Below, piece by piece: positions 3,642 through 16,079 of a stretch of 64,000 bases of DNA. The translations under genes were made by a program, and so were the position numbers. The notes under the pieces were generated by a model. It was not told where the DNA came from. It saw only the letters and a list, made by a program, of their open reading frames with translations, and ran no database searches. Source of the stretch: Opitutia bacterium (lineage in GTDB: Bacteria > Verrucomicrobiota > Verrucomicrobiia > Opitutales > Seribacteraceae); contig PCBO01000135.1 of NCBI GenBank assembly GCA_002730975.1, forward strand, positions 1 through 64,000, written 5' to 3'. How positions within the stretch are numbered: position 1 is the stretch's first letter; each line of letters opens with the position of its first letter.

Positions 3642-4439
3642 ATGCCACCTTCGCCATCCAGTCCATGGGAAGCCCTCAGGGCAGGATTTCGCAGAGCCTG
3701 CGTCAGGCGTTTAGTAGGTGACGAGGAAGGCGCGATAGCTGTGCTAAGGGATGAAATCCCGGGACTAGTGGTGGGCTGGGCCAAAACATCTTCTCTCGAA
3801 GCACCCGAAAAGAAGGCCAAGCTCAAAGAGGTTTTTGACGATGAGTCCGGGCGCGCCGACGAATTGGCGGTAGCCTTTGACCTTTTTGCGGCGAGATTCG
3901 AGACGAAAGTCGCCGATCACGTATCCCGAGAAGTAAAAAAAGCTAGGGCAGAACTGGTTGCAGTATCTAACAAAATTGAGGAAGCCCTCGCGAATTTCTC
4001 CCGGAGAATCGATGCCCTCCCATCCATAAGCCAGATCACGCTCCCCGGTCCAGTGGCCGAATCGCTTCCAATTGAAGATGAGGCGACTACGGAAGAATCC
4101 AAACCTTCCAAGCCAGAGATAGAGATAGAGGAGGAGCCCGCGCCCGAACCCGCCTCGATCGAAGTAACTCCCGAGTCTGAAACCAAGCCTGCCGAACCCG
4201 AGTTTCAAGATGTAGCGGAGAATGAACTCCCGCAAGCGCCGAAACCTGAACCTGAACCGGCGGAAGAGCCTGAACCAGAGCCTGTCCCAACGGCAAAGCC
4301 CAAAAAGGAGCCGATGCAAGAACCTGATACCGATTCTGAAGCTGAGACCATCGCTGAAACCTCACCTGTAATTCCGCGAGGGATTCGTTTCGACGACATC
4401 GAGGGAATGATCGACGAATTGCTTGCCGAAGAAGAGTAA
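3642..4439 (+). CDS. Acidic Pro/Glu-rich coiled-coil protein next to actin-like gene
   Basis: A 265-residue soluble protein without signal peptide or membrane segment. Residues 1-130 are helical; 85-125 has heptad-like spacing (VADHVSREVKKARAELVAV, then KIEEALANFSRRI). Residues 140-240 are a low-complexity acidic region of Glu and Pro repeats (EEPAPEPASIE, KPEPEPAEEPEPEPVP). A short conserved-looking tail, GIRFDDIEGMIDELLAEEE, could be a binding peptide. No family is recognised. It lies 107 bases upstream of the MamK-like gene on the same strand. In magnetotactic bacteria the acidic Glu/Pro-rich MamJ is encoded just before MamK and binds it; here the resemblance is in composition and gene order only. 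Confidence 0.75.
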   Translation: MPPSPSSPWEALRAGFRRACVRRLVGDEEGAIAVLRDEIPGLVVGWAKTSSLEAPEKKAKLKEVFDDESGRADELAVAFDLFAARFETKVADHVSREVKKARAELVAVSNKIEEALANFSRRIDALPSISQITLPGPVAESLPIEDEATTEESKPSKPEIEIEEEPAPEPASIEVTPESETKPAEPEFQDVAENELPQAPKPEPEPAEEPEPEPVPTAKPKKEPMQEPDTDSEAETIAETSPVIPRGIRFDDIEGMIDELLAEEE

Positions 4440-4546: not shown

Positions 4547-5704
4547 ATGGCTCAACAAATGATTATGGATGTTATATCTCCAACCACTGAGGAAAAAACC
4601 GTGCCTAAGTCTAAAACCACTTCAGCCTCCAAAACTGCCAAAGGTAAAAAGAAAATGTCTCTCGGACTCGATCTCGGGACCCTTTTTTCCTGCTACGTCA
4701 ACAAACTCCCCAAGCCTGATTCCGATGACTCGGGTGCAACCATCATTCCCTCGGTAGTCGGTTATGCGGAGGAGGGGATACTCTCCGGAATCCTTCCGGG
4801 CAACAACTCCACTCTTTTCGGTGATGATGCATTGGCTAACGAATTGCATCTTCGTCTTGCCCATCCTCTCTCCGATGGGGTAGTCAGCGACGTTGATTCC
4901 GCTAATCTTTTCTTAAAGCACATACGGTCGCAGATTGATCCTGAAGGCAGTTCGGAAGTTCTTGTCGTAATCGGGGTGCCTGCAGTCGCGGATTCATCGG
5001 CCAAAGATAATTTAAAAAAAGCGGCCAAGGGAGCATTCGACGGGGTGCTTTTTATACCTGAACCCTTTTTGGCAGCCCTTGGTCACCGAGATGAAAGTCG
5101 TTTGGAAGATCCCGACTATCAAGATCCCGTGGCAAACTCGCTTTTTATCGACGTGGGTGCCGGTACAACTGACTTTTGCATCGTTCAAGGATATTTCCCA
5201 AAACCCGAAGATCAGTTAAGCATTCCTTTCGCAGGTAACGAGATCGACGCTATCTTGGACAAGTCGATTCGAGAAGCATACCCCGAGGTTGATTTACCGC
5301 TATCCATGATTCGGAAGTTCAAGGAAGAATTCTCCTATGTCGGTGAAATTGAGTCCGGGGCTCGGGTGAAGGTTCCCGTGGAAGGAAAGCCCCGCAAAAT
5401 CGAGATCGGCAAATCGGTTGGTGAAGCTTGCAACGAGCTATTGAGAGAAACAGTGGAGTCGACTCGAAAAATCATAGCCACTGCTTCTTCACAGTCCGTA
5501 TTTTCGCTGTTGCAGAATATTATCCTAACCGGTGGGGGGAGTAGAATCCGCAACTTTTCCCAAGAATTGCAAAAGCTCCTGCTCGAGGACGGCTATGAGA
5601 ATCCTCTGGTCACTGTGGCAGCTCGTGAAAGTAAGCCTTTCGTGGCGCTTGGGGCAATGAAGGTAGCTCTGGCAGCTCGTGACGACCAATGGATTCGCCC
5701 CTAG
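4547..5704 (+). CDS. Actin-like ATPase of the MamK/MreB type
   Basis: A 385-residue filament-forming ATPase with the actin-fold signatures: phosphate-1 loop LGLDLGT near residue 39, phosphate-2 loop IDVGAGTTDF near 200, adenosine motif IILTGGGSRI near 325. From memory of MamK, several blocks are closer to it than to MreB: PSVVGY, PLSDGVVSD, VIGVPAVADSSAKDNL, PEPFLAALG, PEDQ followed by AGNEID, KEEFSYVG, and LLQNIILTGGGSRI. The first 36 residues are a Lys/Ser/Thr-rich extension; an ATG at 4655 (MSLGLDLGT) is an alternative start. No other magnetosome gene is in the window. The acidic coiled-coil gene lies upstream and an HDOD gene converges from downstream. Confidence 0.9.
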   Translation: MAQQMIMDVISPTTEEKTVPKSKTTSASKTAKGKKKMSLGLDLGTLFSCYVNKLPKPDSDDSGATIIPSVVGYAEEGILSGILPGNNSTLFGDDALANELHLRLAHPLSDGVVSDVDSANLFLKHIRSQIDPEGSSEVLVVIGVPAVADSSAKDNLKKAAKGAFDGVLFIPEPFLAALGHRDESRLEDPDYQDPVANSLFIDVGAGTTDFCIVQGYFPKPEDQLSIPFAGNEIDAILDKSIREAYPEVDLPLSMIRKFKEEFSYVGEIESGARVKVPVEGKPRKIEIGKSVGEACNELLRETVESTRKIIATASSQSVFSLLQNIILTGGGSRIRNFSQELQKLLLEDGYENPLVTVAARESKPFVALGAMKVALAARDDQWIRP

Positions 5705-6706: not shown

Positions 6707-7168
6707 TCAGGATTTCAGTAAGATTTCTCCAGGCCGGTCGGGAGACGAGTCACGACCGAGGAAATTGGAGAGATCAAGGTAGTCACTGAGCAATTGGGCT
6801 CCACTTGTATCAGGTGCAAGCTTCAGGCTCTGCCCGCTAGTTGCTCTAAGCACCAAATTGCCTTCCGGAGTACGCCTAGCGTAAAACTGGGAGTCGGGAT
6901 TATTCGCCATAAAAGCTGAAACTGCAGGATCGGCAAATAATTCGGTCTTTATCTGTTTCCGGATTACGCCGGCATCCTCGACGTTCTTTATGCCGAGACG
7001 ATCGAAAATCGGACTAGACTCGGATGATCCTTTTACTTTTTCCGCATTGGACAACATACCGTCGAAAGCCTCGGACTCACCTGATACTACTTCGGTGCTT
7101 CCACGAAAAGCCGACTGAATAAAGTCCTTGCCGAATGACACTAAACTGGATGCTAATATGGGATTCAT
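6707..7168 (-). CDS. Hypothetical protein co-transcribed with HDOD gene
   Basis: A 153-residue protein I do not recognise. It begins MNPILASSLVSFGKDFIQSA, which could be an amphipathic helix, has a Ser/Glu-rich middle, and a compact C-terminal part with alternating charge (SQFYARRTPEGNLVLRATSG). No Cys residues, signal peptide or membrane segment are evident. The 22-base gap to the HDOD gene suggests a two-gene operon. No Shine-Dalgarno sequence precedes the ATG, as with many genes here. Confidence 0.7.
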   Translation of the reverse strand: MNPILASSLVSFGKDFIQSAFRGSTEVVSGESEAFDGMLSNAEKVKGSSESSPIFDRLGIKNVEDAGVIRKQIKTELFADPAVSAFMANNPDSQFYARRTPEGNLVLRATSGQSLKLAPDTSGAQLLSDYLDLSNFLGRDSSPDRPGEILLKS

Positions 7169-14148: not shown

Positions 14149-15306
14149 ATGACTGTGGAGCAAGGACAATCGCCCTTGGGTCGCGTGAACTGCAAAGTGG
14201 AGAAGGGCGTTTTGCATTGCCGTTTTACAGGACGGTGGACGATTGATACGGTCTCGCAAGAGGCTTCTCGGCTATCATGGAAGCGAGGATTGGCCGACGA
14301 AAAAGATATCATAAAAGTTTCATTCGAGATCGGTGAAGGTGCCGAATGGGATTCGGCCTTGGTAGTTTTTATTCGCTCCTGCCTCATCGATTGCAAGGAA
14401 AGTAAACTTTCTGTCGATATGTCTCGTTTACCTTCGGGTTTGTGCAAACTGTTTCTCATGACCAAAGAGAAGCTCGTTGAAAAAGTCGAACTCGATGGGA
14501 GCGAACAGGGATTTCTGACTGCCGTAGGCGAACTAGTGTTCGCCGTGGCCGAAGCGACCTTGTCTTCCGTTCATTTTCTTGGCGAATGGACTCTTTCACT
14601 GTTTCGCATGTTTAGATTTAAATCACGTTTTAGACCAAGCGACTTTCTTGAATCATGTCGGGCTTGTGGTGCAGCAGCTCTACCCATCGTAACTTTGGTT
14701 AGCTTTCTGACGGGTCTGACGATGGCTTTCGTGGGAAGTGTTCAGTTGGCGAAATTCAACGCCCGAATCTACGTCGCCGACTTGGTGAGTCTTGCCATGG
14801 TTCGCGAAATGGGAGGTCTGATGGTCGCCATCGTTATGGCAGGACGTACGGGCGCAGCCTTTGCCGCCGAGCTTGGAAACATGAAATTAAACGAGGAAAT
14901 CGATTCCTTGCGCACCTTTGGAATATCTCCAATGGATTTTCTTATTCTGCCCCGCACCTTGGCCTTGTTCGTGATGATTCCCATGCTGACTCTTTACGCT
15001 GACGTAGTCGGCATGCTTGGTGGCATGGTTGTGGGTCTGTTCGTAATGGATTTCTCCTTTCACCATTATATCGAGCAAACTCAGACTGCTCTTAGCTCTA
15101 TGTGGGATATTTACTCGGGTCTTGCCAAGACCATTGTCTTCGGTGGTATCATTGGTATGGTCGGATGCCAAAAAGGACTGAATTGTGGGAATGATTCCGC
15201 GGCCCTTGGGAACGCTGTCACCTCTGCTGTGGTTACGAGCATTACTCTTGTCGTGGTCGCCGACGCATTGTTCGAGGTCTTTTACAATGTCATGGGCTGG
15301 CGATGA
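14149..15306 (+). CDS. MlaE-type ABC transporter permease fused to a STAS-like domain
   Basis: Inner-membrane permease of an Mla-type phospholipid transporter. Residues 1-120 form a STAS-like domain (VLHCRFTGRWTIDTV, then WDSALVVFIRSCLID), the role played by separate MlaB in Escherichia coli. Residues 130-385 are the MlaE permease, with about five hydrophobic segments and the conserved stretch MVREMGGLMVAIVMAGRTGA followed by ELGNMKLNEEIDSL. The order is permease, ATPase, MCE protein, lipoprotein; the stop overlaps the ATPase start by 4 bases. The gene likely serves outer-membrane lipid asymmetry. Confidence 0.93.
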   Translation: MTVEQGQSPLGRVNCKVEKGVLHCRFTGRWTIDTVSQEASRLSWKRGLADEKDIIKVSFEIGEGAEWDSALVVFIRSCLIDCKESKLSVDMSRLPSGLCKLFLMTKEKLVEKVELDGSEQGFLTAVGELVFAVAEATLSSVHFLGEWTLSLFRMFRFKSRFRPSDFLESCRACGAAALPIVTLVSFLTGLTMAFVGSVQLAKFNARIYVADLVSLAMVREMGGLMVAIVMAGRTGAAFAAELGNMKLNEEIDSLRTFGISPMDFLILPRTLALFVMIPMLTLYADVVGMLGGMVVGLFVMDFSFHHYIEQTQTALSSMWDIYSGLAKTIVFGGIIGMVGCQKGLNCGNDSAALGNAVTSAVVTSITLVVVADALFEVFYNVMGWR

Positions 15307-16079
15307 ACTCGGAGGCCAATAATATTTCCTCCCCCATCGTTTCCGCCAAAGGCGTTTCCCTTTCATATGGCGACTATGTTGTTTTGCACGACGTAACTTT
15401 CAACGCGATTAGGGGGCAAGCTCTAGTCGTCATGGGAGGTAGTGGTTGTGGCAAGAGCACCTTGCTGAAATCACTGGTTGGTCTCCTCGAGCCAGTTTCC
15501 GGGGCGATTCGTTACGGAGATCAGGATTTCTGGGCAAGCGACAATCAAAAACGTGATGAAATCTCAAGACGCTTTGGTATCCTTTATCAAGGCGGAGCTC
15601 TATGGAGTTCGATGAGCCTGTTGGAAAACGTTTCCTTGCCGCTTGAGATGTTTACCGAACTCTCACCCAAGGAAGTGAGAGAGATTGCCGAGTACAAATT
15701 ATCTCTGGTGGGGCTTTCAGGTTTCGGGGACTTTCGCCCTGCGCAGCTCAGTGGCGGGATGCGCAAGCGCGGCGGATTGGCTCGAGCCATGTCCCTCGAT
15801 CCTGAAATTCTCTTTTTTGACGAACCTTCCGCCGGTCTTGATCCGCTTAGCTCGAGACGATTGGACGACCTCATACTTGAGCTGAAGGAGACTTTGGGCA
15901 TAACTTTTATTGTGGTGACGCACGAACTACCCAGCATTTTTGCCATTGCCGATGACTCCATATTCCTAGATGCAGAGTCCAAGACTCTTTTAGCTTGCGG
16001 TCATCCGGCAACTCTCAGGGATGAATGCTCTGAGGACAAGGTGAGACACTTCCTTTTGAGACAATCGAACTTCTCTTAA
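15303..16079 (+). CDS. MlaF-type ABC transporter ATP-binding protein
   Basis: A 258-residue ATPase that powers the lipid transporter. Walker A is MGGSGCGKSTLLK (about 44-56), the signature is LSGGMRKRGGLARA, and Walker B is ILFFDEPSAGLDPLSS, with the switch His in VVTHEL. The RKR sequence after the signature is typical of MlaF/TrcA-like proteins. It overlaps the permease by 4 bases and is followed by the MCE gene after 44 bases. Confidence 0.94.
   Translation: MNSEANNISSPIVSAKGVSLSYGDYVVLHDVTFNAIRGQALVVMGGSGCGKSTLLKSLVGLLEPVSGAIRYGDQDFWASDNQKRDEISRRFGILYQGGALWSSMSLLENVSLPLEMFTELSPKEVREIAEYKLSLVGLSGFGDFRPAQLSGGMRKRGGLARAMSLDPEILFFDEPSAGLDPLSSRRLDDLILELKETLGITFIVVTHELPSIFAIADDSIFLDAESKTLLACGHPATLRDECSEDKVRHFLLRQSNFS

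Follow-up and report, generated by a model that had tools for sequence, protein, structure and literature searches.

A BeeR-family actin-like ATPase of an Opitutia bacterium, its conserved upstream gene and a probable two-gene cassette with a divergent filament interface

BeeR is a MamK-related actin family of non-magnetotactic Verrucomicrobiota which was described in 2025 (PNAS; PMC11929497; PDB 8r2n). The O. terrae protein was found to polymerise with ATP into filaments in the form of a three-stranded tube, MamK was identified as the closest relative, and a disordered N-terminal extension of 30-50 aa was recognized as a hallmark of the family, whereas the cellular function was given as unknown in that paper, the only one found on BeeR. 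MamK (PDB 5jyg, 5ljv), the nearest other actin family, forms the filament of the magnetosome chain, is encoded in mam clusters and has no N-terminal extension. In our study, a window of 64,000 nucleotides (the whole stretch analysed, positions 1 to 64,000 of contig PCBO01000135.1 of an Opitutia bacterium) was examined around an actin-like gene at 4547-5704 on the forward strand, which a preliminary description had presented as MamK-like and free of neighbouring magnetosome genes.

The open reading frame at 4547-5704 (+) starts with ATG and encodes a BeeR-family actin-like ATPase of 385 aa. The sequence blocks which had been quoted for its resemblance to MamK (PLSDGVVSD, PEDQ, AGNEID, KEEFSYVG and LLQNIILTGGGSRI) are all found in the translation. 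Among the NCBIfam models BeeR ranked first with 499 bits (E 6.5e-150), followed by MamK with 227 and mreB with 55 bits, and the PDB sequence search gave 8r2n as the best match (E 2e-106), then MamK (9e-42) and MreB (3e-13), so that the preliminary view of MamK as a closer relative than MreB is borne out by both rankings. The AlphaFold model (mean pLDDT 87) matched 8r2n best in Foldseek, with TM scores of 0.83/0.90 and 48% identity in the structural alignment; MamK came next and is 30-31% identical by structure. The Lys/Ser/Thr-rich N-terminus, also pointed out earlier, was recovered as a predicted disordered extension of about 35 aa (4547-4651, +), in which residues 1-31 have pLDDT below 50, and it fits the published hallmark. 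The protein resembles O. terrae BeeR in its actin fold, in its disordered extension, in having MamK as closest relative and in its Verrucomicrobiota host without magnetosomes. The MamK-like reading stands as far as a MamK-related, non-MreB actin is concerned, but a closer family than MamK exists.

The score of 499 bits lies below the curated NCBIfam cut-off for BeeR (530 bits; that for MamK is 400). Scores below 530 were obtained in 12 of the 28 genomes of the class in which BeeR was matched, the source genome being counted in, and the cut-off therefore appears to be tuned to Opitutaceae-like members. A maximum-likelihood tree was built from 37 BeeRs, 8 MreBs and one MamK fragment. It placed the protein within BeeR in a clade with support of 98/99, and the MreBs formed a separate clade (100/100), which excludes a position firmly inside MreB; the monophyly of BeeR against the single MamK fragment had support of 92/86. 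Because of the tree, the fold and the anatomy, the protein has been classed with BeeR, taken broadly, and its membership of this family is almost certain. Its named relatives are Opitutales/Verrucomicrobia records. Orthologs reach 96% identity within the genus, and most genomes of the family carry one with 62-72% identity; by this degree of conservation and presence the frame is judged to be a genuine gene and no chance ORF. The puzzle of the MamK-like actin is thus largely solved, as the protein belongs to an already described family.

Two other identities have to be weighed against BeeR. A divergent MreB with a role in cell shape would agree with the Pfam MreB_Mbl match, which is above cut-off at 76 bits, but the source genome carries a canonical MreB elsewhere (contig C61), followed by a gene read by eye as MreC-like, and the protein under study is only 27% identical to this MreB; with MreB also set apart in the tree, this identity deserves hardly any credence. 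A genuine MamK on the margin of a magnetosome island, the other possibility raised in the preliminary description, could draw on MamK being the second-best family and on the contig end lying 4.5 kb upstream of the gene. It is strongly disfavoured, since 227 bits is far under the MamK cut-off and the BeeR score is twice as high; moreover, no mam-like gene lies beside 4547-5704, the MamB and MamM models have no match in the whole source genome, and the MamK model finds there only BeeR and MreB, both below 400 (mamB, mamM and mamK being the mam genes covered genome-wide). The genes that recur beside BeeR in 43 related loci likewise include none recognised as mam. The remark that no magnetosome genes surround the actin is therefore upheld, whereas a mam cluster just outside the window is contradicted by the genome searches for MamB and MamM and by the neighbours of the orthologs, and the island edge finds no support in a protein that belongs to a family of non-magnetotactic Verrucomicrobiota (PMC11929497).

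Directly upstream of beeR, at 3642-4439 (+), lies a gene for a 265-aa protein of no known family, here called the partner, which was recognised by its adjacency in BeeR loci. In a first-pass clustering of open reading frames from the 43 loci, a same-strand gene immediately upstream was kept in 33, and no other genuine neighbour was seen in more than about 13. A profile of the partner placed it adjacent, upstream and always on the same strand in 93 of the 114 BeeR loci whose upstream sequence spans 700 nt or more, not all of which are independent, as some represent one gene from two collections. A search for BeeR across the phylum brought back mostly genomes that had already been sampled. These 93 include the O. 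terrae locus (L082 in genome G147, inferred to be O. terrae from an identical BeeR match score), where the partner has 153 aa and a short linker, in comparison to 265 aa and an acidic linker in the window. In six loci (e.g. L082:9838-10411), genes that look by eye like those of ribosomal proteins L27 and L21 were seen upstream of the partner.

The distribution of the two genes was found to be coupled across 384 genomes of the class, with BeeR in 28, the partner in 27, both in 23, and BeeR or the partner alone in 5 and 4, respectively (Fisher p 3e-28, uncorrected for relatedness). Within the genera g29, g31, g35 and g45, both genes are carried by some species and both are missing from others, a pattern that points to repeated joint loss. 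In one genome (G312, L204:7544-8414), whose genus mates have both genes intact, remnants of the partner and of the BeeR N-terminus were seen side by side; the partner remnant contains four stops, and 50 nt further on 57 residues of BeeR are left, with 77% identity to the BeeR of a sister. BeeR without a detectable partner occurs mostly in one clade, family f39 and its relatives, together with a few small or reduced genomes, and the partner is for this reason not indispensable to BeeR; the f39 loci L096, L103, L104 and L105 are examples of BeeR genes with no partner upstream. In the window the two genes are separated by 107 nt and share no start or stop, scans for promoters and terminators near these genes gave nothing above shuffles, and a putative operon is suggested by synteny only.

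In structure prediction the partner has three parts. An N-terminal helical domain (residues 8-125; 3663-4016, +) is predicted by AlphaFold with pLDDT mostly above 90, with helices at 8-24, 28-49 and 54-125 in high confidence, and is the most conserved part of the family. It is followed by a linker (4017-4379, +; pLDDT mostly 46-69) which is predicted to be disordered, is acidic in the family of the window (net charge -23) and is variable; partners elsewhere have 133 aa and up. The C-terminal end carries a helix motif, RGIRFDDIEGMIDELLAEEE (4380-4436, +; helix 253-264, pLDDT about 80), and 81 of the 86 distinct partner sequences contain the corresponding pattern, FDDIxxMIDxLL or IADxIDxML, compared with 5.6 (about 6) when the tails are shuffled, the regular expression having been written after the alignment was viewed. 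Searches of Pfam, NCBIfam and PHROGs with the partner gave nothing consistent, and a fold search with its model gave nothing at E below 0.001. Three intact partners are located in genomes with no detected BeeR (L201:7528-8034, L203:7464-7979 and L202:1486-2034), and in two of the three the C-terminal helix motif is missing, a hint of a BeeR-related role for the motif, three cases being too few for more. The idea that the N-terminus of BeeR and the linker of the partner carry complementary charges was also considered and was rejected, as the correlation over 81 pairs was positive (0.36) and not negative.

The cross-strand contact positions of BeeR, which alignments place at 5273-5704 (+), differ in the window's family from those of O. 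terrae, in that R242, N246, T307, Q310 and Leu385 are replaced or missing. The window's protein has E243 in place of R242, E247 in place of N246, and V278, I285, K308, A311 and D380 at further contact positions; it ends in WIRP, with no equivalent of Leu385, and most of the published interface residues are thus replaced. Among 33 distinct sequences of this family, R242 is replaced by Glu in 31, N246 by Glu in 32 and N379 by Asp in all 33, and the Leu385 position is empty in 32, the tail ending early. The residues printed as R252 and N380 in PMC11929497 do not agree with the genome numbering; the residues meant are probably R255, which is conserved, and N379. Acidic residues hence occupy the sites of the published Arg-Asn and Glu-Asn tube contacts; with these replacements and the missing Leu385, the published lateral contacts are unlikely to form in this family. 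It is not certain that the tube has been lost, because several interface residues vary in other BeeR groups too, and for a different filament architecture in the marine clade the residue comparison leaves about an even chance. Given the divergence, not every member of the BeeR family can be taken to form a three-stranded tube. Both the partner gene and the altered interface go beyond the known BeeR; they are absent from the main text of PMC11929497 (its supplement might mention the neighbour) and from the open literature searched.

These outcomes probably describe a two-gene Verrucomicrobiota cassette, composed of BeeR and an adaptor or regulator, in which the lateral arrangement of the filament has changed in the marine lineage. 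In actin-like ATPases, polymerisation is driven by ATP, and the product of the second gene would likewise be expected, also from its O. terrae ortholog, to polymerise with ATP into filaments. The build of the first gene product, with a folded end, a flexible linker and a short helix, suggests that it is most likely an adaptor or regulator of BeeR. One of its ends may bind the filament, perhaps the C-terminal helix, and the other end would then bind a second filament, an anchor or a cargo. BeeR may organise a compartment or cargo, as the preliminary description had proposed. In the marine lineage the O. terrae tube contacts would have given way to acidic residues and a shortened tail, and the filament is probably rearranged laterally. 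A functional link between the two genes is very probable, and direct binding of their products, as judged from genome context only, is favoured to a lesser degree. The fuller picture, in which BeeR is one half of a two-component cytoskeletal system tethered by the helix adaptor to a cargo or anchor, with strand architecture changed in marine Opitutales, is tentative and falls somewhat short of even likelihood. MamJ is an acidic protein that links something to the MamK actin filament, and it offers a functional analogy only to the partner. The coiled-coil linkers of the MamK magnetoskeleton (PMC12748827) are likewise an analogy in working only; the partner is set beside these proteins by function and has no known family.

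Some of the same observations could be read in two other ways. The combination of an actin with a small adaptor-like protein recalls the ParM/ParR type of DNA segregation, with a DNA-binding adaptor, and a phage partition protein is a weak PHROGs match of the actin (E 7e-10). The pair is, however, chromosomal and situated among housekeeping genes, both in the window and in single-contig genomes (e.g. G147), and no iterons or centromere-like repeats were seen around it, none of note being returned by the repeat search; a par-like role is disfavoured for these reasons, and as the partner contains no DNA-binding family either, it is given very little weight. It is slightly less improbable, though still improbable, that the upstream gene only lies next to beeR, with shared transcription and no role in BeeR biology. 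The gap between the genes with no shared start or stop and the BeeR clade that does without the partner would suit such a neighbour, but the adjacency persists while other neighbours change, and the two genes are present, absent and decayed together. The linked pair is therefore preferred, and a gene which is kept and lost with BeeR provides a concrete handle on the function of the filament.

Two further features of the window were observed. At 6707-7168 (-) a 153-aa protein with no Pfam family is encoded, which is conserved beside a gene with an HDOD domain in about 12 loci. An MlaE-type permease and an ABC ATPase (Pfam) at 14149-16079 (+) form an ordinary lipid-transport cassette.
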